Assembly: GCA_903813345.2 (NCBI GenBank)
Contig: CAIIXF020000006.1
Location: forward strand, 39,521,936-39,585,935
Direction of reading: 5' to 3'
DNA from: Owenia fusiformis
Taxonomy: Eukaryota > Annelida > Polychaeta > Sabellida > Oweniidae
DNA length: 64,000 nucleotides
A program made the translations under genes and the position numbers. Every line of letters begins with the position of its first letter. The first letter of the stretch is position 1. Below, piece after piece: positions 23,582 to 51,647 of the stretch. The notes beneath the pieces are model-generated. The model saw only the letters and a list, made by a program, of their open reading frames with translations, was not told where the DNA came from and searched no databases.

Positions 23582-25228
23582 ATGGGAGGAATATGTTGTA
23601 AATCAAAGGAGAAACGCTCTGTTGTAGAAAGTACAGAGAATTTACGCCAGCTCTCTGAATTAGAATCACAATCAGAATTGAGATCAATATCGGACACAAC
23701 CTCTGTTATAGAAAGTACAGAGAATTTACGCCAGCTCTCTGAATTAGAATCACAATCAGAATTGAGATCAATATCGGACACAAGCTCTGTTTTTGAACTT
23801 ACAAGGAACTTATATCAACTCACTGAATCAGAAAAAGACATAATATTAACAGACTTTGTAAATGCCGGATATGAGAAATGTAAACTAAAGCTCAGTGACT
23901 CAGAAATCAAAGAACATCAGGAGGAGATTATATCTAAAGTAAGGAGACTTTGTGATAAACTTGGAGAACTTTATCCTGTGTTTGCAGTTGGTGATATACT
24001 ACCAAATGGAAGTTATTTCAAAGGCAGCAAAATCATATACCCTGATGAATGTGATCTGCTGCTAGTTTTTAAAAAACTTTCAAAAAAATATGTAAAAATA
24101 TCAGATGCATATTGGAACAATGAAGTGGAAGTGAGAATACAATCTAAAAATCTGAAAACACGGATCAATGACATAAAACAATCATTGGGAGTAGATAAGG
24201 AAGTAATAGATGATGAGAACAATATTCTGCCTGGTATAACATATTTACGCCAGAGTGCAATCAATAAGTGTCTATCCCAACTGGAAGGTATTCACTACAA
24301 AGGGAAGAGGAGACTAGGACTAACCAGTAGTGAATGGGATTGCTTGAATAGATTGAGACTACTTCATCAGGAGGGGTCTACTTCTTTATACAAATACATT
24401 ATAGAGGAAGAATACTACTCCAATGATGAGTTGAAAGATAGAAACAGGAATGGAACATATGACCCCTACTTATCTCCGAATACAGTTAAATTAGATGAAA
24501 GGAAACATGGCCCATGTGTAAGAATAAGGGTTGGTGGTGGTAAATATACCACAGATATTGATCTTGGGTTCTGTATTAATAAGCAACAGACAGAGCATGG
24601 TAGATATGTAGTCCTGCCATATGACCCAGGACCAATAGGTTTTATTACATCATGGACTCAATCTGTCTATAACAGTAAACATAAACTTGACAAACATCAC
24701 AACAAGCTGCTGATGTTATTGAAACTCCTCATTCTGGAATGTCATCTAATCCCTCACAGCTCCACTTACAGCTCTCATGCCTTGAAGACCCTTGTGCTAC
24801 ATCATCAGGCAACATGTACATCTAGTGCGGGATCATTGGGAGGTTGCCTGTGTGATGTAGCTCATCATGTATTTGAACTCTATGAGATGAAGGAGGTGGA
24901 TGGACACCTGTGGATATATGACAGTGAGAAGGAACTTCCAGATGTTGATTTCCCAGATGTTGATGTACAACCAAGATCATTCTCAGGAATCAGGTCTGAT
25001 AATTATTGGCTGATGCCAGTAGTTCTCTATATCACAATACGTGCACTGAGATCTGGCTGCTGTACAGGAGAGGAGGTTCTACATGTGGACAGATGGTTAA
25101 TCCTATCTGAACTATGGAACAGCAAGAAGGGTGGCTATGTACGGCAATATGGTCCCATAAATGATCGAGAGTGGAAGATACCAATGAGAAAGATTGATGA
25201 ATTAATAACCAGATTTTATAGTAAATAA
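23582..25228 (+). CDS. cGAS-like receptor / Mab-21-family nucleotidyltransferase, gene 1
   Basis: 548 residues in one exon. N-terminus MGGICCKS: Gly2 fits N-myristoylation and Cys5/Cys6 fit palmitoylation, so membrane anchoring is plausible. Two 28-residue repeats follow (14-69), then a helical segment (76-130). Catalytic core: G143-S144 in PNGSYFKGSK, E156 and D158 in DECDLLLVF, and third acid D325 in TTDIDLGF. The C-lobe has W358xxS and SSHALKTLVLHH (397-408), the Mab-21/cGAS 'YHLKT' equivalent. The cGAS zinc thumb is absent. By family it should make a cyclic dinucleotide or similar signal when it senses a ligand such as nucleic acid, probably upstream of STING; ligand and product cannot be read from sequence. 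All three acids are present, so it is likely active. The start fits the conserved 'aaatgggagg' context shared with genes 2 and 3. Paralogs lie at 36558-42082 and 50187-51647. A Mab-21 protein without enzyme activity is the alternative. Confidence 0.92.
   Translation: MGGICCKSKEKRSVVESTENLRQLSELESQSELRSISDTTSVIESTENLRQLSELESQSELRSISDTSSVFELTRNLYQLTESEKDIILTDFVNAGYEKCKLKLSDSEIKEHQEEIISKVRRLCDKLGELYPVFAVGDILPNGSYFKGSKIIYPDECDLLLVFKKLSKKYVKISDAYWNNEVEVRIQSKNLKTRINDIKQSLGVDKEVIDDENNILPGITYLRQSAINKCLSQLEGIHYKGKRRLGLTSSEWDCLNRLRLLHQEGSTSLYKYIIEEEYYSNDELKDRNRNGTYDPYLSPNTVKLDERKHGPCVRIRVGGGKYTTDIDLGFCINKQQTEHGRYVVLPYDPGPIGFITSWTQSVYNSKHKLDKHHNKLLMLLKLLILECHLIPHSSTYSSHALKTLVLHHQATCTSSAGSLGGCLCDVAHHVFELYEMKEVDGHLWIYDSEKELPDVDFPDVDVQPRSFSGIRSDNYWLMPVVLYITIRALRSGCCTGEEVLHVDRWLILSELWNSKKGGYVRQYGPINDREWKIPMRKIDELITRFYSK
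23621..23788 (+). repeat. 84-bp coding tandem duplication in gene 1
   Basis: Two nearly identical 84-bp units (23621-23704 and 23705-23788) encode a 28-residue segment with ESTENLRQLSELESQSELRS. The 'ELESQSEL' core resembles the SQPELE units of gene 2, so this linker seems prone to expansion. The minus-strand frame 23578-23781 is its shadow. Confidence 0.9.
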
Positions 25229-25870
25229 CAATTCATCTCATCTTAGAGCCTAAATTGCAGTATACTCTGTTGTATCTATAATTGGGTCCAAGGTAAAACG
25301 AAATTACTTTACCAGATATATTTTTGATATCTTCAGCTAGTAACCACAGTATTTCTCCAAAATACTTGTATGATTTCACATACATGCATTGTATATGAAT
25401 ATTATTGTGAATATGACAGAATATTACAGAGTGATATAATAATAGCACTTTACTTTCAAATGCTAATGTTCTACAAAAACTGAGTTTTAATACAGGCATT
25501 ACATATTGAACACTTGTAATTCTCAATAAATATCATTTCATGTAGATGCAATGAATTATAATATAAAGATGACTGTTTTGGATTTAGTTCATTTGAATAC
25601 TAAAAAATACTACAGAGTGACCCAAAATAATATGGTGTATTTTACTTTCTAACTCTGATATTAAACAAAAAATTAATTATTATATTCTAATATATACAAC
25701 AACCTGATACAAATCTGTGTGTAACTTTAAATTCATCTGTAGACTGAGATTCATCTTGTTTATCTTGTCCAGGGTTGAGCAAGATGAACCCTTGGGAGAA
25801 GAGAAAATATTTTAAAGTTTTCAGTGGAGTAGTATATATTGAGTTGTATAAATACTAATGATATGTGAAT
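25229..25870 (+). other. gene 1 3' UTR and duplicated downstream flank
   Basis: The sequence after the stop is conserved with genes 2 and 3 ('agagcctaaatt', 'cagtatactctgttgt', 'taattgggtccaa'). An AATAAA at 25525-25530 follows the conserved 'cttgtaattctc' and matches AATAAA at 42385 and 52339, so it is the likely polyadenylation signal. Homology continues downstream ('tctgtgtgtaactttaaatt', 'gttgagcaagatgaaccct'). Confidence 0.65.
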
Positions 25871-26801
25871 TGTTACTGTAGATACACTTAATTTGGGTAC
25901 CGTTTTAATTTGACAGATTGGCGGATTGAGAAAATCTGCCAAATTAAAAATCTGCCAATTTTCAGATCTATTTCGGAATCCCTAGAGAATTTGTAATTTG
26001 TAATTATTTCACTTGTGAAAGTATTCCTATTTGGATGTCAATGCTATACCAGTACTGTCAACCCCCAAAGATTTTTCTCGCGGGACTGATTTTTTAGACC
26101 CAGTGCCCAAAATTCGCGGGATTTTGCTGGAAATCTACTAAAGTCGCGGGATTTCGCGGGGCATTTAAGGGATTAGCGTGATTGCGCTTATAGGCCAAAT
26201 TTTTTTTTATCAAATTCGCGGGATTTCGCGAGACCATTCGAGGGACAAACACCCTAATTACGGGACAGTTAACAGGTTTACCACCAAAAACTTCATAGAG
26301 GGACAGATTTTTTAGACAAAGTGCCCTAAATTTGCGGGATTTCGCGGGACATCCACCTAAATTTGCAGGATGTCCCGGGACATTCAAGGGATTTGCGTGA
26401 TTTGGACTAATGTAAAAGCGTGTAAAAGTACTTAAATCAAACTTTCAGATACTGATTAATCTAATATAATGCACCGTTACATTGTAACTTAAATAAACGT
26501 CAAGATAATTTCACAAAATACGCATAGGAATATTATTAAACTTTATTGTAATTTATCAAAAACAAAAACCATGCTTCAGGTGTGAGTATCGTAATCTAAC
26601 ACGAAATTCAAAAATTTGGAACAATACTTTGCACTTCTGGCGTCGTGACCAACTATATATGAAACGCTTACCCCCATAACGTTATATATCAAAATGTACC
26701 TATTCATATACTGTAGGCATGGACTTTCAATTGAAGGCCCATGATATAGGGGTTCGATTAATCTACATCAAATTATAGGGAATGAGGTTACTTTTCTAGA
26801 T

Positions 26802-27673
26802 AGGGTTTGTAGAAAAAACCGGGTACCGGGTAGTAAATCCTCCATGCTGGGTTCAAACCTGATACCCGGTCGAAAAAAACGAGTACCCAAAAAACGAAAT
26901 TTACGAATATACAACATAATTAGATCATTAGAAAACGTGTAAGATTTGTTTTGAATTTACAAAAATGTATGTAACTTCCTCCAAAATTGAGCTAGAAGCT
27001 TCAAATAAAAAGCATTTTAAGGCTCTTTTCTTCCTCTATCATCATGGTCATATTTCCATTGGTAATGAAGGGGGGGGGGTGCGATTGCACCATCACACCC
27101 TCTCCTGGCTACGCCAATGACATTGCAAGACGATTTGAATAACAAGACAAATCAATAGTTCGTATGTTGGTACGTGAATTGTTTTGATTATGATTTAAAT
27201 CCGTAAATAGCTATCGTTGCTTTAGCAGAGAGGTGACGTGTGTTAATTTACATGATGCAATGTGTAAAATTTTGATTATTAATCATAATTTAAGTTATCC
27301 CAATTGTCGACAAAATGTCCACTTAATTGTAAATTGTTATGTCTTACAATGTCATAGAAGTAGCCAGGAGAGGGTGCGATGGTGCGATCGCACCCCCCCC
27401 ATAACCTATGAAAATATGGCCATGACGATTGAGGAAGAAAAGAGCCTTAAAATATGCTTTTTATTTGAAGCTTCTAGCTCAATTTTGAAGGATGTTACAT
27501 ACATTTTTGTAAATTCAAAACAAATCTTACACGTTTTCTCATAATCTAATTATGTTATATATTCGTATTTTTCGTTTTTTGGGTACCCGTTTTTTTGACC
27601 GGGTACCGGGTACCAAGTTTGAACCGAGCATGGAGGATTTACTACCCGGTACCTGGTTTTTTCTACAAACCCT
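26802..27673. mobile_element. fold-back element with ~330-bp arms, 8-bp target duplication
   Basis: Ends AGGGTTTGTAGAAAAAAC and the complement pair for about 330 bp, including GGGTACCGGGTA motifs, 'atggaggattta' and C- or G-runs near the inner ends. TTCTAGAT is duplicated at 26794-26801 and 27674-27681, fitting a hAT-type insertion. The plus frame 27233-27544 lies in the right arm and is not a gene. A related GGGTACCCGG motif appears at 40060-40120. Confidence 0.75.
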
Positions 27674-27904
27674 TTCTAGATATCAGCATCCATAGATATC
27701 AGCGTTTGCTAACATTTGCTGAGTTCTGAGATGAAGGCCACACGGGTAGTAAAAGGCCAACGTTGGAACTATTTGTGACCTACATCCCTATTTTCGTAAT
27801 TAAAATGAAAGTTAAACCCTTCCTCTTTATTTTGATACCAAACAATTTAAAATAAGGTAAACTTTACTCCTCAAAAGTGCAAAAACTTAGCTTCTTATAT
27901 AAGA

Positions 27905-29151
27905 CTAGATAATGGCAACTCCGCGGAGTAGCAAATCCCAACGAACAAAATATCAATTACTGAATTCCAATCAATTATACTCATTACTTTGGTTAAAATT
28001 GAAAAATTTAGATTTGAGAATTGCTAATTCCTGCAAAGCAGCCATTTTGAACTTTCTGAGGTACAAATCTGAAAAATAATACCATAATTGTGATCTACTC
28101 CAAAATTCCTTAAATTAGAGTATTATATAGCCATACGTTGAAGGGATCGAAAAATTATTGCGAAATCGTACATTAGACGGCCATTTTGAATTTTACGAGG
28201 CTCGAATCAGAAAAAAGATATAATATTTGCAATCTACTCTTAATTGCCTTTCATTTGAGTATAATAAAGCTATACTTCAGAAAGATCTACAAATTAGCAC
28301 AAATTTCTGTTTTCCTGACCCCCCATACACGGCCCCTGGGGGTCAGGATGAAAAACACAGAATATATGTGAAATAGATAGATGTTGCGAATATACTACCA
28401 AAATTTCAAACAATAATATTAATTACTTTGGTTTAGAATGGAAAATTTATGATTTTTGCGAAAAAGTCCCGTCAGCGGCGGCCATCTTGAAAAAAATCCA
28501 TTTTGAATTTTCTGAGGTACAAATTTGAAAAATAATACCATAATATTTATCTACTCCAAAATTCCTTCAATATGAGTATTATACAGCCATACTTTGAAGG
28601 GATCGAAAAATTATTGCGAAATCATACATTAGACGGCCATTTTGAATTTTACGAGGCTCGAATCAGAAAAAAGATACAATATTTGCAATCTACTCTTAAT
28701 TGCCTTTCATTTGAGTATAATAAAGCTATACTTCAGAAAGATCTAAAAATTAGCGAAAATTTCTGTTTTCCTGACCCCCCATACACGGCCCCTGGGGGTC
28801 AGGATGAAAAACACTGAATATATGTGAAATAGATAGATGTTGCGAATATACTAACAAAATTTCAAACAATAATATTAATTCCTTTGGTTTAGAATGAAAA
28901 ATTTATGATTTTTGCGTAAGGCCCGTCATTTTTAAAGCGGCGGCCATCTTGAAATTTTTTTTTTTTTGCGTAAAACTTTTCATCAATATACATCTTTCCA
29001 CCAAATATGACGAAAATCCGTCTTCTAATATTTGAGTTATCTTCCGGACGGACGGACGGACGGACTGACTGACTGACGGACTGACGGACTGATGGACTGA
29101 CGGACGGACGGAGGGCTTCACTATATCCCTACCGAACTTCGTTTGTTGGGA
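27905..29151 (-). mobile_element. Helitron-like non-autonomous element, copy 1
   Basis: Read on the minus strand it begins TCCCAACAAACGAAG directly after an A and ends in CTAG directly before a T, with a hairpin (CTACTCCGCGGAGTTG) a few bases before the end. These are the hallmarks of Helitron insertions between A and T. A TCCG microsatellite lies just inside the 5' end (29045-29112). Internally a ~460-bp segment is tandemly duplicated (about 28030-28450 and 28508-28910). The frames at 28186, 28572 and 28903 are repeat translations. Confidence 0.65.
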
Positions 29152-29486
29152 TAATAAGATAATCACAATATAGGGGATTGCAACATTTTCGGAAATTCGC
29201 GGAGGTCAAAGCCACTTTTGCGGGACTTCGCGGGACATTGCGGGACACGCGAATTAGCCTAATTTTGATCGAATTCGCGGGATAATCCCGCCATTCGCGG
29301 GACACTTGACAGCTCTGCTATACTAAGACTTACTGTAAGTGGAACACATGAATCTGAAATGTTTATTTCCAGATCTATGCTAAAACTTCAGCTCAGTTCT
29401 GACTCCGCCAAAGTGAATAGCCGTCAATACTTGAAATTGAGCAAATCTGCCAAAATTTAGTAGCGTCAAATTAAGTGTATCTACAG

Positions 29487-29835
29487 TATATATGTTATCC
29501 AAGATGCCATATATATATATAATGGGTTTAAATGTTGCAAATTAATAAGAAAGGAATTGTGAAATGAGGCAGGCAGAATATGTATAATTACTTAAGATAA
29601 CATGCATATGCATTTTTATTTGAAATTATATAATTATATTAATTAATTTATCTTTGGTCACGTGATATGCTTTATGTTTTCTAGAGATTCAATGGCTCAT
29701 TTATATTTACATTTTATAAACAAATGAACATTTTCTAGGAAGTCCTAACACCCATTTAGCAATGATGATTAATGTAGTGCTGATCAGTTGACCAGTTAAT
29801 TTTATTTCATCTTCCCTTCTAGCAGGGATAGCAGG
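29487..29835 (+). other. continuation of the duplicated downstream flank of gene 1
   Basis: The flank resumes after the nested elements and matches gene 3's downstream sequence at about 53210-53550: 'tatatatgttatccaagat', 'aatgggtttaaatgttgcaa', 'gatatgctttatgt', 'tagcaatga'. The C-terminal part of the 127-codon minus frame at 29707-30090 lies within this duplicated non-coding flank, which argues against it being a gene. Confidence 0.6.
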
Positions 29836-31789
29836 AGTTCCAGGGTCAGCTGCCTTGAAATGGCTTGAAGAAGTATGACAGCCAAAATCAATCAGCATTT
29901 TTTTAAACTTAACCATTGAAATTGAAAGAATCATTTTGAGATTGCTTTTCTTTTCATTTTTGGGTAGTAGGGTAAAAATTGACCTACATTCTCGGAATAG
30001 TTTATGTACATAGGATTTTGCACTATTTCCCTGAATGATGTCGCTGTTTATATTTGGTAATAGGGAGTTTTCGCAACTCCCGTATAGCACTCCCTTATAA
30101 CGTATAACTTATGTAACGAAGCTGTGTTGTTATTAAGCGTTCAGTAAGGTGCTGTCCTCTTTAGTTAAAAATGTAAAGTAAAAGGATGTATGGAGAAATG
30201 AAACTAATAAATGTAGTATCAAAAGCTAGCTATGCAGTGCTGCCCCCTTTAAATGGAATTAAAAGCTAAAATAACTTATTAAACAAATGGCTCTATGAAG
30301 GAATCAGGGAACCCAGTAAAATGTGAAGATGACTGAAATGGCTTTAATCTAAGGGAGTTTTACTATGGATTTAATCTTAATCAGCTCAATTCCCACAAAC
30401 TATAACACAGCAAAATGAGTAGGTTCTTAAGATGAGTGTTTAATTGTATGTAAATCTTGTATTGTACAAAAATAAATAAAATATACTTGTTATCAAAATT
30501 ACTTTTTCACTGACTGTGAGATAATAATGAACCTGACTAGTAGCAAAAATTCCCGCTATGTAACTATAAGATTACAAATGTACACTTTTATACAAAGCTG
30601 AGATACGTGAGCCTGAAAAGTAAAAAGTACAAAAATCCAGCCTTTGAAGGTGATATCGAGGCGCCATGGGTTGAAAATGGAAATAAATGACGCAAAGTTC
30701 CAGCTCCTGAATGAACAACGGGAGCACCTGGTTACTTAATGCAAAATCTGTATAAAAGTATCCGCAGTATAAAAATGTAGAAAAATATTTGCACCAGTTC
30801 AAATAATAATCAAGTTTCGAAGGCACAAAATGTAATGGTTATGTAAGTGAATAAAATATTGCGTTTTAATCTATAATAATACTGTAATAATGCTGTGTTC
30901 AGAAAACTACCTTATATGGCCATGAATTCAAATCTCATTCCAAAATAAGTTTATAAAAAGTTTCACATTCAGCTTTATGAAATTCTAAGAAAATATGAAG
31001 CAATATAAGATCTCTGTTTAAAATGGCGCTCAACTGTTCCTGTTCAGGGAGCAGTAATAATACTATGCTCTGAGGTAGCAAATATCCTTTAACTCAAATG
31101 AGTGCTTAGCAGCAAAAATCAGAATGAAAATTGGCAGAAACTCTCAAAAGCTCAATTAAGTAGCCAAAATAGACTCAGTTTTTGAAAGGTTAGGGATCTT
31201 AGCCCAATTTGCACTAAAAATAAGTCAGACTGCAACCCTCCAGAGTATGGATAGACACAGATTTTACAAATACTAATTAAATCAGATGTCAATGGAATTC
31301 TGCCTAGAAATGTCAATAATTACTGGCCATCTCTGGCCTAAAGATGTGAAGTGAAATAAACTCAGCACATCAATTGAGTTCAAGAATATAAAAATATGGT
31401 TCCAAAGACCAGGAAAAATGATACCTGGCGCTTTGGAAATTGCCAAATCAAGGTGAAAAAGTAATTGAAAATTCGAAGGCGCCTACTCCTATCCACCTTG
31501 GTCTTAGCAAACTCAACTTAGTAATTTCCTAGCGCCAATAATGGGGGCTAAAACATACCCAGAGCCACCTGTCTTCATTCATGTTGGTATAACGTGTCTT
31601 CGCCAACAGTGAGTTGGCCTCAATCTCAATGTTTTCTGGTGATGTAAATGTAGATGTCGAAAATCGTATTGTACGAGAAGAAGATGGCTGTGTATCTTAA
31701 AACTGAGACAACTGAAACACTTGAGTCGTGAGAGCCCTCTATCAGCAGTGTTAGGTTTTAAAAGCATGAAGTCATTTTTACAAGAATAA
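29836..31789. other. no supported gene
   Basis: Only short frames without recognisable motifs are present (30572-30826 and 31579-31767 on the minus strand). The sequence appears unique within the window. Confidence 0.3.
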
Positions 31790-31860
31790 TAAACTTACAA
31801 GGAACTTATACAAGCTTGCTAAATCAGAAAAAAAGATATATTAAAGGCCCATTATGCATA

Positions 31861-34168: not shown

Positions 34169-34866
34169 TTTAAAGCGACTCTATGCTTTAATAGGATAGC
34201 ACAATGAAGACCCCTTTGGACCTTTTAGCATATTGAGTTTCACCACATTATAGTCACCTATCTACTTACCAACGAAGCAGTCCCAAATCCTCCGCTTTCA
34301 ATGTTAATTTTGTGATTGTGCTGGCCGATCTAATTATTTTCACTGAAATTAATTCAATCTGAAGTTTAAATATACCGGTAAAATCCCCTTGTTATCTGAT
34401 TGGTCATTGAATTTGTTTATCATGAACCTGATTGGCTGTCTGATTCAAGGCTAGTTTGGGTGCTTGTGTGACTTAATGGGGATTCACCTTGCTAGCTGCG
34501 GAATCAATTGTGTTTTATTCTGAAGGTTTTGGTTGTTCTGTTGATTATTTCAATATATCAGCAATAATATACCCAAAAGTTATTCTCAAGATATATCCAC
34601 ACTATATATAAGGTATTATATGAGCAATAATAACGGGACACCATTGATTGTCTTGGCGAGAAGCTCTGGTATAGTGCATCTTTAAAACATGCCTTTAACA
34701 GACTGCGAATATTGATTATAAGAAACTTACGCTTATTGACTTAAAAATCAAAGAACATCAGGAGGAGATTATATCTGAAACAAGGAGACTGTGTGATAAA
34801 CTAGGAGAACTTTATCCTGTGCTTGAAGTTGGAGATATTGTTCCAAATGGAAGTTGTTTCAATTAA

Positions 34867-35551: not shown

Positions 35552-35555
35552 TTAA

Positions 35556-36526: not shown

Positions 36527-36640
36527 GCAATATATTGCAATATTATAAGAATTTCAAATGGGAGGAATATGGACTTTAAATCACAGAAAAGCTCTGGTGT
36601 AGAACTTACAGGGTACTTACACCAGCCTACTGAATTTCAA

Positions 36641-37262
36641 TCTCAACCAGAATTAGAATCACAACCTGAATTAGAATCACAACCTGAATCAGAATCACAA
36701 CCAGAATTAGAATCACAACGAGAATTAGAATCACAACCTGAATTAGAATCACAACATGAATTAGAATCACAACATGAATTAGAATCACAACCTGAATTAG
36801 AATCACAACCTGAATTAGAATCACAACATGAATTAGAATCACAACCTGAATTAGAATCACAACCTGAATTACAATCACAACCAGAATTAGAATCACAACC
36901 TGAATTAGAATCACAACATGAATTAGAATCACAACATGAATTAGAATCACAACCTGAATTAGAATCACAACTTGAATTACAATCACAACCAGAATTAGAA
37001 TCACAACCTGAATTAGAATCACAACATGAATTAGAATCACAACATGAATTAGAATCACAACCTGAATTAGAATCACAACCTGAATTACAATCACAACCAG
37101 AATTAGAATCACAACCTGAATTAGAATCACAACATGAATTAGAATCACAACATGAATTAGAATCACAACCTGAATTAGAATCACAACCAGAATTAGAATC
37201 ACAACCTGAATTAGAACCAGAATCAGAATTAGAATCACAACCTGAATTAGAACCAGAATCAG
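36641..37262 (+). repeat. 18-bp coding minisatellite in gene 2 (~34 units)
   Basis: Units encode SQPELE or SQHELE, with SQPELQ, SQLELQ and SQRELE variants. A six-unit (108-bp) higher-order pattern, P-P-H-H-P-P with a Q at the end, recurs about four times, so blocks were amplified together. The long minus-strand frames at 36627-37238 and 36643-37392 are shadows. Confidence 0.95.
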
Positions 37263-37684
37263 AAGAAAGCTCTGTTGTTAAACTTACAAGAAGCTCATAC
37301 AAGCTTACTGAATCAGAAAAAGACATATTTACAGACTTTGTTAATACTGGATATGAGAAATGTAAACTAAAGCTCAGTGATTCAGAAATCAAAGAACACC
37401 AGGAGGAGATTATATCAAAAGTAAGGAGACTTTGTGATAAACTAACAGAACTTTATCCTGTGTTTGAAGTTGGTGATATACTACCAAATGGAAGTTATTT
37501 CAATGGCAGCAAAATAATACACCCTGATGAATGTGATCTGCTGCTTTTATTTAAACAACTTTCCCTGCCAAATGTAGATATATCAGATGTATATAGGAAC
37601 AATGAAGTAAAAGTGTCCATTTGTAATGAAAATCTGAACAAACAAATCAATGACATAAAACAATCATTAGGAGTTCATGAGGAA

Positions 37685-38980
37685 GTAATAGATGATGAGG
37701 ACAATCTTACGCATTATATAAGACATTCAAAAGTAATAGATGATGAGGACAATCTTACGCATTATATAAGACATTCAAAAGTAATAGATAATGAGGACAA
37801 TCTTACGCATTATATAAGACATTCAAAAGTAATAGATGATGAGGACAATCTTACGCATTATATAAGACATTCAAAAGTAATAGATAATGAGGACAATCTT
37901 ACGCATTATATAAGACATTCAAAAGTAATAGATAATGAGGACAATCTTACGCATTATATAAGACATTCAAAAGTAATAGATAATGAGGACAATCTTACGC
38001 ATTATATAAGACATTCAAAAGTAATAGATGATGAGGACAATCTTACGCATTATATAAGACATTCAAAAGTAATAGATGATGAGGACAATCTTACGCATTA
38101 TATAAGACATTCAAAAGTAATAGATGATGAGGACAATCTTACGCATTATATAAGACATTCAAAAGTAATAGATAATGAGGACAATCTTACGCATTATATA
38201 AGACATTCAAAAGTAATAGATGATGAGGACAATCTTACGCATTATATAAGACATTCAAAAGTAATAGATAATGAGGACAATCTTACGCATTATATAAGAC
38301 ATTCAAAAGTAATAGATGATGAGGACAATCTTACGCATTAAATAAGACATTCAAAAGTAATAGATAATGAGGACAATCTTACGCATTATATAAGACATTC
38401 AAAAGTAATAGATAATGAGGACAATCTTACGCATTATATAAGACATTCAAAAGTAATAGATGATGAGGACAATCTTACGCATTATATAAGACATTCAAAA
38501 GTAATAGATAATGAGGACAATCTTACGCATTATATAAGACATTCAAAAGTAATAGATAATGAGGACAATCTTACGCATTATATAAGACATTCAAAAGTAA
38601 TAGATGATGAGGACAATCTTACGCATTATATAAGACATTCAAAAGTAATAGATAATGAGGACAATCTTACGCATTATATAAGACATTCAAAAGTAATAGA
38701 TGATGAGGACAATCTTACGCATTATATAAGACATTCAAAAGTAATAGATAATGAGGACAATCTTACGCATTATATAAGACATTCAAAAGTAATAGATAAT
38801 GAGGACAATCTTACGCATTATATAAGACATTCAAAAGTAATAGATGATGAGGACAATCTTACGCATTATATAAGACATTCAAAAGTAATAGATAATGAGG
38901 ACAATCTTACGCATTATATAAGACATTCAAAAGTAATAGATAATGAGGACAATCTTACGCATTATATAAGACATTTACTC
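37685..38980 (+). repeat. 48-bp coding minisatellite in gene 2 (27 units)
   Basis: 27 near-identical units encode VIDDEDNLTHYIRHSK or VIDNEDN... variants, differing almost only at one GAT/AAT codon. The period is exactly 48 bp, so frame is kept throughout. The unit corresponds to a single segment in gene 1 (EVIDDENN, residues 207-214). The D/N order is irregular with N-D-N and N-N-D blocks. One unit carries a TAT-to-TAA change at 38339-38341. Confidence 0.97.
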
Positions 38981-39322
38981 CAGAGTGCAATCCATACCTG
39001 TCTGTCCCAACTGGAAGGTATTCACTACAAAGGGAAGAGTGATGTAGGACTAACCAGTAGTGAATGGGAATGCTTGGAAAGACTGAGGCTACTTCATCAG
39101 GAGGATTCTACTTCCTTTTATGAGTCAATTATAGAAGAAATAATACCAAGTTCATTGAGAGATAGTTGCAGGAATGGAACATATGACCCCTACTTATCTC
39201 CCAATACAGTTGAACTAGATGATAGGATACATGGACCATGTGTAAGAATAAGGGTTGGTGGTGGTAAATATACCACAGATATTGATCTTGGGTTCTCCAA
39301 AGAAAAGCAGCAGAAAGAGCAT

Positions 39323-41459
39323 TAGGGTGTTCGGAAATTTCACTTTTTTACCCGAGAGCTAAGCACATTTGGGTTCCCATTCCTTTTGCCATCAAAAATA
39401 ATCCTGCAAAGTTTCAGATTGCTAGGATAATGTCTTGGTTCTTGGAATTGCCCCTCAAATATCAGCCATTTCGGACCAAAATGGCATTTTTTATGAAATT
39501 TGTTCATTTTCAAAGGAAATTAAGATATACTATACTTTTTGCTATCCCACTAAATATTGAATTTAATGTAAGATGTTACCTTATATATTCATAATATAAC
39601 AGAATAATGTACTATGATCAAGAATTTTAATACACAGAAAAACATCAATTGGCCATAGGGCTACATGTATAGATGCAATACTGGAGTATTAGTGGTTATC
39701 ATTTCTCATGGTGCCATGATAGAAGTCCATATTAAAAATGAAATCATCCATATTGTCAATCTGTTATTTAGTTAAATTCTTGATATCTATACTAAAAGCT
39801 GTCTATGATGATTTGCCACCATTTGAACACGGTCTCTTCAGCCAGGATCCTATGCATAATTCACAAATTCTGTGATGTCCTTTATTGCTCTCAAAACATT
39901 CGTTTGTTTGTCATTTTGCAGGTCGATTTATTGGTTGATAAATTTTGTTGCCTGTTTGCTTGATTGGTTGTGTCACTGGTATGTTGATTGGGATGTCAGT
40001 TGGGCATTTTGAGGCATAATATGAAAAAATCAAATTCCTAACCCTGGTAGGAAGTTGGGGTACCCGGTCACCCGGATACCGGGATACCCAGTTACCCGGT
40101 CACCCATTTTTTTCACAAACCTAAAGATCTCCGGTGTTATAGATCCAATGGCGTAGCGTACGCATAAATGGAATACTCTCTAAATTCACACTTAGGTTAT
40201 CAAGTCCTATGACCACTTTTACATTGTGAACCAGGATGCAATAAACTTTAAGGTACTGCTTGAAAATAACATTTTGGGAAAAAATTGCTACACCTGCACA
40301 TGTTATTTTCCGAACGCATGTGTGTATTTCCTTGCTTTTTTCAGAAAAGTATAACATTGTCCACTATTAGTAAACCTGGAAACGGGTCAATGGTAGCTTC
40401 TGGAAATTGTAAAAAAAAATTGTAAAAAGAAAGCGAGAAATATTAGAACTTCCCTGTTCCTAGAATTTCCATTGACCTCTTCTTACCAGATTTCCTAAAA
40501 GACAATGTTATGATACTTTCCTTAAAAAAGCAAGGGAATACTTTACTTTGTACCAGATATAACATGTGGAGGTAGAGCAATTTTTTACCAAAATGTTATT
40601 TTCAATTCCAGCTGTACTTTAATAATACTACACGGATATTCTGTAAAAATGGTCAATAATTTACATTTTATTAGGCTAATCTATACTAGTCGGAATTTGG
40701 TAGTTAAGGCGCCCCAGAATACTTCAAATGCAATCTCATTTTCAAATTTTCTTGGGGGAGTGACCCCCAAATCCCCCTCAAAGTAGTTTGCTTCGCTCAC
40801 TTGTGGCATACTCACAACATACCCACGCTACTCCTCAGAGTTCTATCTATTATTGGGTGGGCAGGCCTTTTGCTTTGGTGGCACATCTGATCCATATGCA
40901 ATTGTCACTGACTCACCCCCCCCCCCTTGGGAAATCCTTTGGTCAGGCCTGCATTAAAGCTACCTACATTGAAGCATGGGGTGGGATGGTATACTCTTTA
41001 AAAGCTTTGGTGGCATGTAATTAAATTCTACATAACTGCAGCATTACAATCAAGAAGCTTGGTCCTAAAATCATTATATCTTAATTATTTACCATGTACT
41101 AGTTTAAGCAAACGGATGTGTTTTGTTCCTTTTTGTTTGTTATTTGTGTATTAAAACCTCTTGATCATAGCTATATTACTCTGTTATACAATGAATATAT
41201 AAGGTAATATCTTACATTAAATCCAATATTTAGTGGGATAGCAAAAAGTAAAGTATGTCTTAATTTCCTTTGAAAATGAACAAATTTCATAAAAATGCCA
41301 TTTTGGTCCGAAATGGCTGATATTTGAGGTGCAATTCCAAGAACCAAGACATTATCCTAGCAATTTGAAACTTTGCAGGATTATTTTTGATGGCAAAAGG
41401 AATGGGAACCCAAATGTGCTTAGCTCTCGGGTAAAAAAGTGAAATTTCCGAACACCCTA
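39323..41459. mobile_element. hAT-like insertion in gene 2, ~290-bp inverted ends, 8-bp duplication
   Basis: Ends TAGGGTGTTCGGAAATTTC and the exact complement pair for about 290 bp ('acccgagagctaagcaca', 'tcctgcaaagtttcag', 'ccatttcggaccaaaatgg'). AAGAGCAT is duplicated at 39315-39322 and 41460-41467, lying in the KEH codons of gene 2. An 8-bp duplication and TAGGG ends point to hAT. No transposase frame; the short frames at 40121, 40788 and 41287 are incidental. A GGGTACCCGG-type end near 40060-40120 suggests a further nested remnant. Confidence 0.9.
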
Positions 41460-42082
41460 AAGAGCATGGTAGATATATAGTCCTGCCATATAACACTGGA
41501 TTAAACGATCTTACATCATGGACTCAATCTGTCTATAACAGTAAACATGAACTAGATAAACATCACAACAAGCTGCTGATGTTATTGAAACTCCTCATTC
41601 TGGAATGTCATCTAGTCCCTTATAGCTCCACTTACAGCTCTCATGCCCTGAAGACCCTGGTGCTACATCACCAGGCAACATGTAGATCAAGTGAGAGATC
41701 ATTGGGAGGTTGCCTGTGTGATGTAGCTCACCATGTATTTGAACTCTATGAGATGAAGGAGGTGGATAGGCACTTGTGGATATATGACAGTAGGAAGAAA
41801 CTTCCAGATTTTGATTTCCCAGGTGTTGATGTACAGACAAGAAGGGCATTTGGATACAGGCCTGATAATTATTGGATGATGCCAGTAGTTCTATACATCA
41901 CAATACGTGCACTGAGATCTGGCTGCTGTACAGGAGACGAGGCTCTATATGTGGACAGATTGTTAATCATATCTGAACTATGGAACAAGAGAGAATGTGG
42001 TTATGTGTATGCTGTTCCTAAAAAGTGCATGATACCAATAGGAAAGATTGATGAATTAATAACCAGATTTTATAGCAAATAA

Positions 42083-42930: not shown

Positions 42931-43900
42931 GTAACGGAAATTGACCGGTACGGGTCAAAAGCTGGACCGGTATATTGCGATTCGAACATGAAAACTCACC
43001 AAATTGTTTCGAATATTCATCATGGTCCGCCATTACTACGACCCACCGTTATGACGTCACACATTACACGTATTAACTGGGTGATTGATCTCAAATATAA
43101 CCCAGCTGAAGCATTGACTTTGTTTACAGTTTATAGAAGGCATGAATACAGTCATGTTCGAATTGAATTTAAAACAGCAATAGCTTGCTCAATATTGACT
43201 TCCTCGTGTCTAATTTGAAATATATGATGCCTCCCGATGCTTTTAAGTACCCCAATTTTTTACAGATTTTTAAACGGACCAAAACTCTCTAAATGCGCAT
43301 TTTCACGATAACTTTTATTTAGTACTTCTAACATATAAGATCTATTTTCCCCATCAAAGTATGATGTAAATGACATGCTATTTACATCTTGTGAGTTTTT
43401 TATGTTAGTCTCAGGTTTCAATGACGCGCGTTTGATTTTATAAAAAATGCCAAACTTTGTGACAAAGAATTTCATCCTGCTTGCAGCGAGAAGACGGACC
43501 GGTTCTATTGCCCCGAAAAAAAACCTTGAATAAAATCTTGATTTTTGTAGATACACTTAAATTGACTTGTCAGTATAAAACTACATTGTGTCTGAGCATA
43601 ATAACCTGCACTAAGCAGATCAACCATGCATAGATACTTTGTAATCCTATTGTTTCGAAAGGCACCCTATTGTGTTCTTGTTTTTAGGAATGAATGACCT
43701 TCTGCAGTCACTGACAGATTGAGGTGCTTCCGCAGGTCAGACCCCTCTGATTTCACCTTTATTGTTAAGTATTAACATAATTGCAGAGTTCAAACATGAA
43801 ATGAAAGAGGGTCCTGGCTGCAGAAGATATACAATGTGAAAGTATAGCAAAAAAATTAGTTTCAAAAAGGAGGCCATATTGGATCTGCCAGACACCAAGG
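42931..43900. other. no supported gene
   Basis: The short frames at 42988-43218 (+) and 43260-43556 (-) have no recognisable motifs. 43547-43559 matches the end of the TA-target MITE at 25876 without a partner. Confidence 0.3.
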
Positions 43901-44707
43901 CAACAAACTATCAGACAAGTATCAAATGGGTCAGTTTATTTTTGATTTATCAGTCATGCATGCCTCTGAAGAGGATACATTGCAGAGGGACTGAATTGAT
44001 ATCCATTTAGTCATTAAAGGGACACTGTTTGTAAGGCAGTTCTCATGCTAATGAACACTAAAATGTATTAAACAAAGAATCAAATGGGTCAATCTTCTTT
44101 TGATTCATCAGTCATGTCTATCTCTTGAAATGATATGTTGAAGAGACACTGAATTGATATCCATTAAGCCATTAAAGGACTCTCCATGTAGGGTAGTTCT
44201 CACCCAAAGAAACAAATAGGCCAATCTATATTTGATCGATCATTCATGCATGCCCCTGAAGATGATATATTGCAGAGGGACCGAGTCATTATCCATTCAG
44301 CCATTTAAAGGGACATTGTTTGTAAGATAGTTCTCATCCTAATGAACACTGAACTATTTTTAACAAAGAATCAAAGGGTCAATATACTTTTGATTCATCA
44401 GTGATCCCTGCCCCTGAATGTAATATATTGCTGAGGGACTGAACCAATATCCATTTACCCATTTAAAGAGACACTGCTTGTAAGGTAGTTATCAACTAAT
44501 GGGCCAATCTATTTTTGATTCTTCATTCAATTGCCTACCCTTGAAGATGATATATTGCTGAGGGACTAAATCAATATCCATGTAGCTGTTTATAGGGACA
44601 CTGCTTGCAATGTAGTTCTCACCAAAAAAACAAAAGGGTTAATTTATTTTTGAAGCTTGTCCCAAAAGATGATATATTGCTGAAAGACAGAATCAATATC
44701 CATTTAG
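43900..44707 (+). repeat. tandem array, about six units of 125-175 bp
   Basis: Units carry 'caaatgggtcaat', 'tttttgattcatcagtcatg', 'cccctgaagatgatatattg', 'agagggactgaat', 'atatccatttagccattt' and 'gggacactgtttgtaaggtag'. The array is cut by the element at 44708-48292 inside 'catttag|ccatt' and resumes briefly after it (48293-48330). Confidence 0.8.
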
Positions 44708-47700
44708 TGTATCAGATGCTGGCACAGTTTTGCCGGAAGTTTGCAAGAAGTAACTTTTGGCAATGCAGTATGTTAGAGTAACCTAGTAGGTGTAAGAAAA
44801 TATAAGGTGATGGCCTTTAAAGTGGTAAAAACAATTTTCACGGCCGAATTGGACTTCAATTCCTGCGATTTCAGGGGGTACTATAAGACTATTTCATAAC
44901 ATAAAGGATATAGGTGCTATTGTTCTGCTTTCTACAGCACACATTACTAGTCCAAAGATGAATAATATCCTAAAGTTATAGGCCGATATCTGTATTAGTC
45001 TCAGAAATATTGCAATTAATAGGAAAAAAATACGCAATTTTAGACATTTTTAAGTCTCACGTATCTTATATTTGTAGCTTCCAGCAAAAGATTGCAGCTT
45101 AAATAGCTCAAAATTGTTTTCTAAAAACTAATTCAAGCTTTGTTTGATATTGTAATACAATTATAATAATGATAATGTACTATTTATGATTTTTAATATG
45201 ACTTTATAGTACCCTACCCCTGGAAAGTGGGCGTGGTCAATGTTATCATTTTGCAGCATACAATTAAAAACTTGTATTGATAGAAAGCAAATCAATGCAT
45301 ATAAAACATCTTCACTTGTTACTTGACAATGTAATTCATTACAAAATGATCTACTATATGACCAATAGCCACAAAAAATAGCAGAACTGATCAACGTTTA
45401 AACCCCCCCCCCCCTTACCCCTATGTTTGTTTTGTATGGGATCCGCCACAATGCAACAAGTCCATTTTCAGTGCTTACTATCACATGGAATATAAGTCAC
45501 AATGTTTCCACAATATCTGGGCAATGAGATAGTGCCATTAAGAATATGTATGCCCAGATTCAAGATCATGGTGTAAATGCTTGCCGATCTATCGGCTTTC
45601 AAAAATGAGGAAAGCTGTCTTGAGTGCCGTTTCAACTAATTTTGAATTAAAACTGCTACTTATGAATTTTTTTCTCAACAACTGTGATTTGGTTAGAGTC
45701 CAAACACAGGATATCAAGACATAGTGCTACCAAATTCTGGTATTGAAAATTTCAGAGCTCTAGATCAAGTATTCATATCTGCATGGACTCTTAAAAAGAC
45801 CCAAAAGACACAAAATGCAGTTAGATATCGCGAAAAAATGTGACAAAATGCACTATTCAGAACAATTTATCTCTTAAATTTTACTTTTATTTACCATAAT
45901 TTCTGATTCTGCCTCTAGTTAGTAATACCAATAATACATATGAGTAGACTTAAGGTCATAGTAAGTGTAGTTACAGGTTTATTAGCATCTAAAAATGGGA
46001 GAAGCAGTGTAGCAAGTGCAATTTTCACCTATAATTCATAATATTAAACTGCAGCTTTCAGGATTTTCTAAATATAATTCGAGAAAAGATTTGAAAAAAT
46101 AATTGAAAAAAAATTATAAAAAAATGTTGAAATTTTTTTAAAATATTTTTGAAAATAATTGAAAAATGTAAAAAGAAATTATTTTTTGAAAAAATTCGAA
46201 GCCATGGAATATCACTTTTCAAACCACCGAATATCACTTTTTAAGACGTGATATTCGATAGTTTAAAAGTGATATTCGATGGTTTGTGAATTTTTTGCTA
46301 AAATATTATAACTTGATCCACATATCAAATATATCTTCATGTGATATTCGATCTATATCCTTGCAACCATGGGATAATCACTGATATGCTTAAGACCAAA
46401 AAACCTATAAAGAATGTTATTATTGAATACTGAGAATACATTGTTTTTACATTACGGAGCTTTATTTCTACCTGAAAGTATTTTGGAACATATCTCTTGC
46501 TTACATTTTTCCAATGTTACTTTCAAAAACTTTCTTAGAACAATTAGTCCATCATATACTTTCACATGTTATTCTCCATTTCGTTTTTAAAGATTGTGGG
46601 AGCTTTAAACTCTAGAAGAGCTTAATTACCAATTATACCATGCACCCTCTTTGCCCTCCGTCGCATTTTTCTTAGAATGGCCAGGCATATTTCAAATTGA
46701 AGAGTAAAGTCAGTTAAAGTTATATATAGCTGTATATAACAACGTATCTTTCACTTGATACTGTGATGTCAAGCTTAAGCATTCAAACAGTGTATTTTGT
46801 CCCAAGATACAATAAAGTACTGATTTCATTTATTTATCAATTCAGATGCCTTGGAATTAAAGTAAACACTTGGTATATATTACCAATATTATTTTTACCT
46901 ATTATTGGTGGTACAATGACCAGGTTTCCATTAATGTCTTTGGTCTTACTATGCAGTTTGTAAAAAGAAAATTCAGAAAGTTGCAGTCTTAGATGAAAAA
47001 CTGGTGAAAATCATACTTGCTACAGCTTTTCCCATTTTCAGAAGCCAATAGATCTGTACTTCCACTTACTATGACTTTAAGTCTTCTCATATGTATTATT
47101 GGTGGTACTAACTGGAGGCAGAATCAGAAATTATGTCAAATAAAAGTAACATTTAAGAGATAAATTGTTCTGAATAGTGCATCTTTCATATTTTATACGA
47201 TATCTGACAGTTTTTTTTGTCCTTTTGCCTCTTTTTAAAAGTACATGCAGAAGTGAATATTTGATCTAGAGCTCTGAAACTTCCAATATCAGAACTTGGT
47301 AGCATTATGTCTTGGTATCTTATGTTTGGTGTCTAAAAAAGTCACACATGTTGAGAAAAATATTCATTAAGCAGCAGTTTCAGTTCAAAGTTAGTTAAAA
47401 CTGCACTAACGACAGCTTTCTCTATTTTTGAACGCCGATAGATCGGTAAGTATTAGTATTAGGACCTTGAAACTGCTCATATTATGTAGTCTTTGTGGTA
47501 CTTTCTCATTGCAAAGGTAATTTGGAAACACTGTGACTTACATTTCATGCGTTAGTGAACACTGAAAATGAACCAGCCTATTAGATTTCATCATGATACG
47601 TTGTACACAATTGAAAACGTATATATAAAATATTTAGAGTCCTATATTTTAGTAATGAATGAATTACAATGTCAAGTAACAAGTGAAAATGTTAAAAATG

Positions 47701-48292
47701 CATTGATTTGCTTTCTATCAATATAAGTTTTTAATTGTATGCTGCAAAATGATAAAATTCACCACGCCCACTTTCCAGGGGTAGGGTACTATAAAGTCAT
47801 ATTAAAAATCATAAATAGTACATTATCATTATTATAATTGTATTACAATATCAAACAAAGCTTGAATTAGTTTTTAGAAAACAATTTTGAGCTATTTAAG
47901 CTGCCATCTTTTGCTGGAAGCTACAAATATAAGATACGTGAGACTTAAAAATGACTAAAATTGCATATTTTTTTCCTATTAATTGCAATATTTCTGAGAC
48001 CAATACAGATATCGGCCTATAACTTTATGATATTATTCATCTTTGGACTAGTAATGTGTGCTGTAGAAAACAGAACAATATAGCAACTATATCCTTTATG
48101 TTATGAAATAGTCTTATAGTACCCCCTGAAATCGCAGGAATTGAAGTCCAATTCGGCCGTGAAAATTGTTTTTACCACTTTAAAGGCCATCACCTTATAT
48201 TTTCTTACACCTACTAGGTTACTCTAACATACTGCATTGCCAAAAGTTACTTCTTGCAAACTTCCGGCAAAACTGTGCCAGCATCTGATACA
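44708..48292. mobile_element. 3.6-kb giant inverted-repeat element, TAG target duplication
   Basis: Left arm about 44708-46080, right arm about 46960-48292: roughly 1.3 kb each, pairing from TGTATCAGATGCTGGCACAG inward through 'aactttccaggggtag'-type blocks, 'tcagagctctagatcaa' and 'cataagtagac'. Arms have diverged noticeably. TAG is duplicated at 44705-44707 and 48293-48295, and neighbouring tandem units supply the empty site 'tccatttagccatttaaa'. The ~900-bp centre has an A-rich zone and a hairpin of 'tgatattcgat' phrases (46205-46290). There is no transposase frame; the frames at 45161-45394 and 46763-46963 are incidental. Confidence 0.85.
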
Positions 48293-48330
48293 TAGCCATT
48301 AACGGGACACTGTAAGACTCATCCTAAGTC

Positions 48331-49110
48331 AAACTAAAATATTTTACTTCATAATAATTATATGTTATACACGTACAATGGATAGATTAAAATACCTCCA
48401 CTTGTGACGAAAAAACTCTCCTACATGCACCTTTTCAATTCTAAAAAGCAACAATTTGACTTTATACCTTTAGCTTCAATTGAATTATTCTTTGAAAATG
48501 CCAAATAAATATATCATATATTGGAAAGTCACAACTAGAATTTTAATATTTTAGTTGAATACCTAGGTTTTGTGTTTTCAATATGTTGCCTTTTGTGTCC
48601 TACCTTTGATAATGATGTGTAATATGTCCTCTCAATTGAATATCCTAGGTTAAACCTTCTGCATAGCAACTGAGGTGATACTTTTGCCGAGATTCAAGAT
48701 TAAGATTCATAGATATATTACATTTTAGGGGTTGTTTTATGATTTGTGTTTTCAATATGTTGCCCTTTGTGTCCTACCTTAATGATATTTTGATATATCG
48801 ATTGATTGAATGGTCAATATACTAAAAACAGTCATGAGTGAAGACTAACATACCTCTAACATGATATTTAGAATAATTTGCATAGACAAACTAAATGCAC
48901 TGAATGACCTTGGTTTTAATCCCTATGACCTAATTTTGTTTTGGATGTGTTCATAATTGATAAAAGTAACTATTTTCATGTTATATTCAATGAAACCTTT
49001 GGGGGCGCCTTTAGGTACATGGGGTAATTGATCCTTTGGGGGTATGTAGGTTGGAAAATAAAAAAGTTGTAGTGTCTTGAAAAAAAGTGGCGTTTTTTTG
49101 GCCCACCCTG
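48331..49110. other. no gene; short duplication and a solo mariner-like end
   Basis: 'gtgttttcaatatgttgcc' plus 'tttgtgtcctacctt' occurs at about 48572-48606 and 48747-48781. 49093-49110 is a TTTGGCCCACCCTGTA end as in 31861-32566, abutting the 5' flank of the cGLR fragment at 49137. A left end was not found. Confidence 0.4.
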
Positions 49111-49290
49111 TATATGTGCAAATTATTGCAATATTATAAGAATTTCAAATGGGATGAATATGGACTGTAAATCAAAGAAAGGCTCTGGTATAGAACTTAC
49201 AGGGTACTTACTCTAGCCTACTGAACTAATATCACAACCAGAATTAGAATCACGACCTAAATTAGAATCACAACCTGAATTAGAATCCAT
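49111..49290 (+). pseudogene. 5' fragment of a gene-2-type cGLR copy
   Basis: The flank 'attgcaatattataagaatt' and the start region are those of gene 2. The ATG of 'atgggatga' is followed at once by a stop. The alternative start at 49153 gives MDCKSKKGSGIELTGY, then a stop. Three SQPELE-type units are readable after that, then homology ends near 49290. So this copy had few hexapeptide repeats and was lost beyond its first ~45 codons. Confidence 0.85.
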
Positions 49291-50110
49291 TGCTTTTGGT
49301 GATTGTTTTGCAAATGAAGATGTCCTTAAGGCCTATGTAACGTATTGACTATTGGTTCAGCTTTTGTTTCAAGCTACCCAGGAATTCGCAGATGCGAGTA
49401 GGTAGTTACCAGTTTCGCCACCAGGTGGCTGATTCGGGGGAATTAACATGGCAGGGCATTACAAAATTCCCTTAAACTTGAATATGCATCAGTTTTAGTG
49501 GTTCACTTTTCATATAACCAATATGTATCTGATAGTTATACAAATTAAAATATGTCCAGTAAAAGAAAATATTATCTTCCCAGCACAAGAAAGATATTTG
49601 ACTTTTTGTGGTTTTACAACATGGGGTCTATGGGGAATCTCCCCGACCTAGAAGTCACATTTTCAAAGAAAATTAAATTTTCAAAGTTGATAAACCCTTT
49701 TCAAAACCACATTTTTAAATGTAATTTTACATGTAGATTCCAAATATGACATCAATTTGACTGAATTGTGATTTTTAATGCTACTATATCATGTTTGTTT
49801 GCTGTACACTTGCCGAAAGGGATTTTTAGTACAATGAAGCATTGAATATTAATAATGACGTAAATCAATATTATTTCTACTCGCATCTGGGATATTACAT
49901 AGGAGTATAGGTTTGTTCAATGTTCATGTACTCCATTGAATTTTCGTAAAATGTAGCGAATAAATCAATATTCCCCTGACAACACCGTCTATGTTTTTGT
50001 TCCTGATATGATGGATCAATGTGCCAGAATGGTTATGACGCAACAGCTTTGATGAAAACCCTATTAAGGGTAACTCCACTATAGATACACAGATAATGGG
50101 AATACTGGAT
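49291..50110. other. no supported gene
   Basis: Intervening sequence between the 5' fragment and gene 3. 'ctatgtaac' near 49335 and 'attacatag' near 49894 hint at a diverged inverted-end element. The frames at 49552-49749 and 49924-50154 have no recognisable motif. Confidence 0.3.
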
Positions 50111-50133
50111 TGATGTGAGAAAAAATGTACTAC

Positions 50134-50142
50134 TATATATAG
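50134..50142 (+). promoter_or_regulatory. TATA-like element, gene 3
   Basis: TATATATAG 44 bp before the ATG at 50187, in a region aligning with gene 2's upstream ('aatactggat', 'gagaaa', 'gcaaat'). It is the best TATA match of the three genes. Confidence 0.45.
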
Positions 50143-50186
50143 CACATGGAGCAAATTATGACAACAGTTTGTGTTTGAAATTCAAA

Positions 50187-51647
50187 ATGGGAGGAATATT
50201 TAGCTCTGTTACAAAACTAACAAGGAACTCATACAAGCTTACTGAATCAGAAAAAGACACATTAACAGACTTTGCAAATACTGGATATGAGAAATGTAAA
50301 CTAAAGCTCAGTGACTCAGAAATCAAGGAACATCAGGAGGAGATTATATCCAAAGTAAGGACACTGTGTGATAAAATTGGAGAACTTTATCCTGTGTTTG
50401 CAGTTGGTGATATTCTACCAAATGGAAGTTATTTCAATGGCAGCAAAATAATACATCCTGATGAATGTGATCTGCTGCTATTATTTAAACAACTTTCAGT
50501 CCCAAATGTAAATATATCAGATGTAGATTGGAACAATGAAGTGGAAGTGAACATAAAAACTAAAAATCTGAAAACACAAATCAATGACATAAAACAATCA
50601 TTAGGAGTAGAAAAGGAAGTAATAAATGATAAGAACAATCTTATGAATATAACATATTTACTCGGGGGTGCAATCCATGACTGTCTATCCAAACTGGAAG
50701 GTATTCACTACATAGGGGCGAGGAGACTAGTACTAACCAGTAGTGAATGGGACTGCTTGAACAGACTGAGGCTACATGTACTTCATCAGGGGGGGTCTAC
50801 TTCTTTATACAAATACATTATAGGAGATAAATTCAGCTTCTCCAATGAGTTGAGCGATAGTTGCAGGAATGGAACATATGATCCCTACTTATCTCCCAAT
50901 ACAATTGAATTAGACGAAAGGGGGCATGGACCATGTGTAAGAATAAGGATTGGTGGTGGTAAATATACAACAGATATTGATCTTGGGTTCTGCATTGAGC
51001 AGCAACAGACAGAGCATGGTAGATATATACTCCTGCCATATAACTCAAGATCACCTTATTTTACACCATGGACTATATCTGTCTATAACAGTAAACATAA
51101 ACTAGACAAACATCACAATAAGCTGCTGATGTTATTGAAACTCCTGATTCTGGAATGTCATCTAATCCCTGATAGCCACACTTACAGCTCCCATGCCTTG
51201 AAGACCCGGGTGCTACATCACCAGGTATCATGTACATCTAGTGAGATATCATTGGGAGGTTGCCTGTGTGATGTAGCTCACCATGTATTTGAACTATATG
51301 AGATGAAGGAGGAGGATGGACAGCTGTGGATATTTAACAGTAAGAAGGAACTTCCAGATGTTGATTTCCGAGGTGTTGATGTACAACCAAGAATAGTACC
51401 AGGAGGATACAGGTCTGATAATTATTGGCTGATGCCAGTAGTTTTCTACATCACAATCCGTGCATTGAGATCTGGCTGCTGTACAGGAGAGGAGGCTCTA
51501 CATGTGGACAGATGGTTAATCATATCTGAACTATGGAACAACAAAGGAGAAGGTGGTTATAGGCAGATATCTGGGTGGCCGCCTAAAGAGTGCAAGATAC
51601 CAATACAAAAGATTGATGAATTAATAACCAGATTTTATAGCAAATAA
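50187..51647 (+). CDS. cGAS-like receptor / Mab-21-family nucleotidyltransferase, gene 3
   Basis: 486 residues from the conserved MGGIFSS start. The frame is open 24 codons upstream, but that part lies in the promoter-like flank and is not shared in frame with gene 1. Gly2 with Ser6 fits N-myristoylation; unlike gene 1 there are no cysteines, and the expandable linker is missing, so the enzyme domain begins at about residue 9. Motifs: G80-S81 (PNGSYFNGSK), E93 and D95 (DECDLLLLF), third acid D263 (TTDIDLGF), C-lobe SSHALKTRVLHH and YWLMPVVFY. No zinc thumb. All catalytic acids are present, so activity is plausible; ligand and cyclic-nucleotide product are unknown. Same strand as genes 1 and 2, about 25 kb from gene 1. 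No codon is disrupted. The 3' flank is conserved with the paralogs. The minus-strand frames inside are shadows. A non-enzymatic Mab-21 protein is the main alternative. Confidence 0.93.
   Translation: MGGIFSSVTKLTRNSYKLTESEKDTLTDFANTGYEKCKLKLSDSEIKEHQEEIISKVRTLCDKIGELYPVFAVGDILPNGSYFNGSKIIHPDECDLLLLFKQLSVPNVNISDVDWNNEVEVNIKTKNLKTQINDIKQSLGVEKEVINDKNNLMNITYLLGGAIHDCLSKLEGIHYIGARRLVLTSSEWDCLNRLRLHVLHQGGSTSLYKYIIGDKFSFSNELSDSCRNGTYDPYLSPNTIELDERGHGPCVRIRIGGGKYTTDIDLGFCIEQQQTEHGRYILLPYNSRSPYFTPWTISVYNSKHKLDKHHNKLLMLLKLLILECHLIPDSHTYSSHALKTRVLHHQVSCTSSEISLGGCLCDVAHHVFELYEMKEEDGQLWIFNSKKELPDVDFRGVDVQPRIVPGGYRSDNYWLMPVVFYITIRALRSGCCTGEEALHVDRWLIISELWNNKGEGGYRQISGWPPKECKIPIQKIDELITRFYSK

Follow-up and report, generated by a model that had tools for sequence, protein, structure and literature searches.

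A probable tandem cluster of cGAS-like nucleotidyltransferase genes in Owenia fusiformis, part of a large lineage-specific clade

We analyzed a 64,000-nucleotide stretch of the genome of the annelid Owenia fusiformis (referred to here as the window; C6:39521936-39585935 of a 498-Mb assembly with 12 large contigs). Judging from its sequence, the window probably holds part of a tandem cluster of nucleotidyltransferase genes of the cGAS-like receptor (cGLR) type that belong to a large, lineage-specific clade. In the mechanism that we propose, the ligand would come from a pathogen and would probably be nucleic acid; the proteins would bind it in the cytosol, with several members held on membranes via predicted N-terminal myristoylation. 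Ligand binding would lead to synthesis of a cyclic dinucleotide, which would activate STING. Duplication, probable gene conversion, minisatellite change, and selection would diversify the surface and the linkers and leave the catalytic core unchanged. The STING ligand-binding domain gave 14 exon matches in several places in the genome, making a cGLR-STING pathway plausible; groups of these matches at C7:10960518-10982096 and C5:30326204-30330175 suggest that STING, too, is tandemly duplicated. The elements that we report as new are a signature of four His/Cys residues, candidate N-myristoylation signals in 16 of 66 family members, and a signal of positive selection that survives both gap removal and the use of per-segment trees.

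The window contains one such family, represented by two intact genes with single open reading frames (ORFs), one disrupted gene, and fragments, all on the plus strand; start codons are ORF predictions. Gene 1 (23582-25228, +) encodes an intact cGAS-like protein of 548 amino acids (aa), with an 84-bp tandem duplication in its linker (23617-23791). Gene 3 (50187-51647, +) is likewise intact and encodes 486 aa from the first Met (516 aa from stop to stop). The two proteins are 77% identical over ~480 residues, far above chance. Between them lies the disrupted gene 2 (36569-42082, +), which carries an N-terminal 18-bp array, a 48-bp array with a stop codon, and a transposon insert. The G-S, E-x-D, and T-D-I-D signature that the original prediction had ascribed to these three genes is present in all of them, and its proposal that fragments mark further copies also holds. 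One fragment (34684-34863, +; E value, 5e-17) corresponds to residues 23 to 84 of gene 3, has an internal stop, and ends at the G-S motif; a second (49111-49286, +) comes from the N-terminal part of a copy of the gene 2 type and contains a stop; and a third, of 54 bp (31791-31844, +), resembles the family's N-terminal coding region with 83 to 85% identity. Repeated 3′ flanks are also present in the window.

Close paralogs occupy about 240 kb of the same contig (C6, 39.545-39.786 Mb) in both orientations. The plus-strand block has five copies, namely gene 2 and four with open frames; it is followed by a minus-strand block with three open-frame copies, one copy broken by stops, and fragments. 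Hence, the single orientation described from the window holds within it, and the cluster as a whole is a plus block followed by a minus block. Outside the cluster, there are close paralogs at 37.68 Mb (one) and on contig C202 (two). The cluster, gene 2, and the fragments together bear out tandem amplification accompanied by pseudogenes.

Profile comparison showed homology to cGAS and Mab-21 throughout the catalytic core and over most of the helical lobe at the C terminus. We built a profile (A2) from an alignment of 28 relatives found in the genome. Against the PDB, it matched cGAS with an E value of 3.1e-11 and cGAS-like receptor 1 with an E value of 7.8e-9. Two stretches aligned to cGAS: the N-terminal spine region and a portion of the C-terminal helical region, the second being weak by itself. 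Aligned with hhalign to the seven Mab-21/cGLR-type proteins of the genome, the same profile gave an E value of 2.7e-15 over 281 columns, covering residues 16 to 368 of 486. A published definition of cGLRs (PMC9980059) asks for homology across the nucleotidyltransferase core and the C-terminal helix bundle, and the alignment over residues 16 to 368 shows such homology, short of the last 118 residues. The ten closest paralogs alone matched the Mab-21/cGLR set of the genome with an E value of 3.7e-7 and gave weak matches to cGAS (E value, 0.015). Some distant family members pass the PF03281 cut-off. Together, the profile matches and these distant members support the predicted relatedness to cGAS and Mab-21. 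Scans of viral and prokaryote contigs found no relatives of the family.

The catalytic motif of gene 3, GSYFNGSKIIHPDECD (50424-50471, +), includes G80, S81, E93, and D95, and the third catalytic acid is D265 (50979-50981, +), the second D of T-D-I-D. These five residues are kept in 64 to 65 of 66 family members. At residue 265 in particular, 64 of the 66 have D, as does each of the six conventional relatives compared. Some members have Y, H, or S in place of the first D of T-D-I-D; this variation and the profile alignment rule out the first D as the catalytic acid. The predicted T-D-I-D signature is present as a motif, with the correction that the catalytic acid is its second D. In one open-frame member of the cluster, L005 (C6:39741175-39742602), the third acid is changed to Tyr (TDIY), and this protein has probably lost activity.

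Four further residues, H310, H345, C349, and C359 of gene 3 (candidate metal-site span, 51114-51263, +), are almost invariant, being kept in 64, 65, 66, and 65 of 66 members, respectively; one member, L079, lacks both H345 and C359. The six conventional proteins have other residues at these columns, except for a single C at column 359. From this pattern, the C-terminal lobe probably has a metal site formed by these four residues, with a role like that of the cGAS zinc ribbon.

We next consider selection on the family. Pairwise ratios of nonsynonymous to synonymous substitution rates (dN/dS) among paralogs were 0.35 to 0.67, and a sliding window gave about 0.21 at the catalytic motif versus 0.9 to 1.0 at residues 98 to 179. 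Codon site models were fitted with in-house implementations and fixed relative branch lengths, so that the values given here are approximate. Twice the log-likelihood difference was 66.8 for M1a/M2a and 105 for M8a/M8 with all codons. Trees differ among gene segments, which suggests gene conversion. Since the segment trees differ, the M8a/M8 test was repeated without codons within five columns of a gap (33.8) and by thirds of the gene, each with its own tree (11.1, 8.7, and 9.5). The signal of positive selection is weaker in these tests yet persists. The preference for M8 over M8a, in the trimmed and per-third tests as well as with all codons, lends support to the arms race that had been read from the window. 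The accompanying claim of fast turnover stands in part: the disrupting events look recent, whereas intact close paralogs are separated by a dS of about 0.16 to 0.4.

These values bear on two other explanations of the locus. That the family is largely nonfunctional, a set of amplified relics in repeat-rich DNA, would account for the disrupted gene, the several fragments, and the transposons and minisatellites across the window. However, many long intact family ORFs are found across the genome, and dN/dS in the core is well below 1, with the pairwise values all below that figure too; we consider this explanation very improbable. Alternatively, the proteins could be nucleotidyltransferases with a non-immune role, amplified for unrelated reasons. 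The Mab-21 superfamily does have non-immune members, such as Mab-21 itself and MiD49/51, with roles in development and mitochondrial dynamics. However, the conventional Mab-21-type genes of this genome sit in another clade, and it is unusual for developmental genes to show tandem turnover, positive selection, and gene death. A non-immune role thus seems improbable, less so than wholesale relics.

The main rival is an immune role without catalysis, in which the proteins would be Mab-21-family adaptors that make no nucleotide but bind a ligand or a kinase and enhance signaling. Three shrimp Mab21 proteins are reported to activate IKK-epsilon although they neither bind nucleic acid nor synthesize cyclic GMP-AMP (cGAMP) (PMC12928593), and L005 keeps an open frame with the third acid gone. 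Set against this, nearly every member retains the G, S, E, and D residues along with the third D, and no part of the gene evolves more slowly than the catalytic region, as expected under selection for catalysis. We therefore regard adaptors as unlikely, though a better candidate than either of the two preceding explanations, and favor active cGLR-type enzymes.

Several results weigh against the cGLR-type interpretation. The original prediction had proposed PF03281 as a check, and a direct Pfam search gave the window proteins of the family no hit, either to Mab-21 (PF03281) over its curated cut-off or to any other entry; the evidence for homology thus comes from comparing profiles by way of intermediate relatives. 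Single-sequence PDB searches with the window proteins likewise gave no usable match. In the hhalign comparison, the last 118 residues were left unaligned to the conventional set. AlphaFold2, run on a shallow three-row alignment of window sequences only, reached a predicted local distance difference test score of 33.9, which is no usable model. In a tree of 72 sequences, a very long branch is the only connection between the family and the conventional cGLRs. The shrimp precedent indicates that a cGAS-like sequence is no guarantee of enzyme activity (PMC12928593). Finally, no family member fits the printed cGLR motif of PMC9980059, h[QT]GS [X8-20] [DE]h[DE]h [X50-90] h[DE]h. The family does have G-S, [DE]x[DE], and the third acid. 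However, the position preceding G-S is occupied by N in 33 members, R in 22, and T in 8, and E-x-D is separated from the third acid by 120 to 199 positions. The printed spacing may be too narrow, because the conventional cGLR-like genes of this genome, with spacings of 112 to 116, miss the motif too.

The same 72-sequence tree separated 66 family members from six conventional Mab-21/cGLR-type proteins by a branch with a Shimodaira-Hasegawa-like approximate likelihood ratio test (SH-aLRT) value of 100; long branches make finer placement unsure. The clade thus has at least 66 genes in this genome. With the printed motif absent, the homology present, and no usable structural model, we describe it on sequence grounds as a cGAS-like clade whose mode of action most likely resembles that of cGLRs, and do not file it as strict cGLRs.

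Genes 1 and 3 begin with candidate myristoylation signals: MGGICCKSKEKR (MGGICCKSK) in gene 1, with two cysteines and basic residues, and MGGIFSS in gene 3. We scored the pattern as an N-terminal sequence of the type MGxxx[ST, or A/G/C/N]. It begins 16 of the 66 members, these two included, and 13 of the 16 have S or T at position 6; 2000 shuffles averaged 1.0 and never exceeded 6. The pattern follows 17 of 117 Met residues in the N-terminal zone versus 2 of 489 in the protein body. The tree requires at least 10 to 11 changes of this trait. In gene 2 (start region, 36558-36571, +), the ATG at 36558 would encode MGGIW... but in a different frame from the main ORF, which starts at the ATG at 36569. 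An open-frame paralog, L011 (C6, 39.606 Mb), has the same arrangement: in both genes, the ORF begins at a second ATG, 11 bases past the out-of-frame one, and the MGGI signal is lost. A limited search of the open-access literature found cGLRs and myristoylation together only for human OAS2 and in a general review. Four distant members (L021, L030, L035, and L044) have strongly hydrophobic segments outside the core that are possibly transmembrane.

We now turn to the arrays and breaks of gene 2. An 18-bp tandem array in the N-terminal linker (36630-37252, +; 34.6 copies) encodes (SQPELE)n. A 48-bp array inside the catalytic lobe (37683-38975, +; 26.9 copies, 98% matches) is in frame and encodes HSKVID[D/N]EDNLTHYIR. 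Only three unit types make up its 26 full units: a pair distinguished by a single codon and one bearing the stop. We take the array to have expanded recently for this reason. The stop, TAA at 38339-38341 (+), lies in one unit, the others having TAT. L011 carries about two extra copies of the 48-bp unit and is open, so loop expansion alone does not break the frame. The frame of gene 2 is further interrupted by a 2,137-bp insert (39323-41459) with terminal inverted repeats and an 8-bp duplication, AAGAGCAT, on each side. The repeats have 2 mismatches in the first 150 bp and about 95% identity over 322 bp, and both ends of the insert are ~93 to 97% identical in copies elsewhere in the genome. An intron was considered as the source of the gap and was ruled out by the target duplication, the inverted repeats, and the multicopy nature of the insert. 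An 8-bp target duplication, terminal inverted repeats, and multiple copies are the marks of hAT-type elements; because the insert has all three, it appears to be a non-autonomous hAT-like transposon.

Taking these results together, we tentatively propose, at somewhat less than even confidence, a broader interpretation. The family would be a distinct animal clade of cGAS-like enzymes, at least 66 in this genome, with its own C-terminal H-H-C-C metal site. N-myristoylation would have been gained or lost about ten times, giving one animal a large set of cyclic-nucleotide sensors, some on membranes and others soluble, whose diversification is driven by selection and occurs partly via in-frame coding minisatellites.

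Elsewhere in the window, a 1038-aa open frame on the minus strand (13171-16287) has endonuclease and reverse transcriptase domains (PF14529 and PF00078) and is a non-LTR (long terminal repeat) retrotransposon. Long tandem arrays with a period of about 115 to 136 bp lie at 7715-9061, a tandem duplication with a period of 456 bp and 95% matches at 28042-28916, and degenerate arrays with many CCATGGTAT palindromic units at 61328-63325. Scans of the window for tRNAs and Rfam families found none.

Among the closest known systems is vertebrate cGAS (cyclic GMP-AMP synthase), in humans the enzyme that senses viral DNA. The family shares with it the catalytic motif G-S...P-x-E-x-D, and the third acid is matched via the profile of the conventional relatives. 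In contrast, the H-CC-C zinc ribbon of cGAS is not seen in that form, another invariant set, H-H-C-C, being present; E-x-D and the third acid are about 170 residues apart rather than about 92; and the family carries N-myristoylation signals.

Among animal cGLRs such as Drosophila cGLR1 and the coral Sp-cGLRs (PMC9980059), the match of the family profile to cGAS-like receptor 1 is a point of likeness. Most animals are reported to have 2 to 4 cGLRs, and the coral Stylophora pistillata has over 40, along with 7 STINGs (PMC9980059); the expanded repertoire and several STINGs of O. fusiformis resemble the latter. Unlike these receptors, the family forms a clade separate from the conventional cGLR-like genes of its own genome, mostly has N or R rather than Q/T before G-S, and has the longer spacing and the His/Cys signature. 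That a clade of at least 66 genes escapes both Pfam and the printed motif suggests that sequence surveys undercount such sensors. Shrimp LvMab21-1/2/3 are, by description, comparable as invertebrate immune proteins of the Mab-21/cGAS family, but they are reported to neither bind nucleic acid nor produce cGAMP (PMC12928593). Human OAS1 p46 and OAS2 are related nucleotidyltransferase sensors placed on membranes by lipids, and the antiviral activity of OAS2 depends on N-myristoylation (PMC13372824). They belong to the OAS family rather than to cGAS/Mab-21, and the likeness to our predicted signal is one of analogy. Predicted lipid anchoring of the O. fusiformis proteins would parallel OAS1 and OAS2, where membrane placement decides which viruses are sensed.

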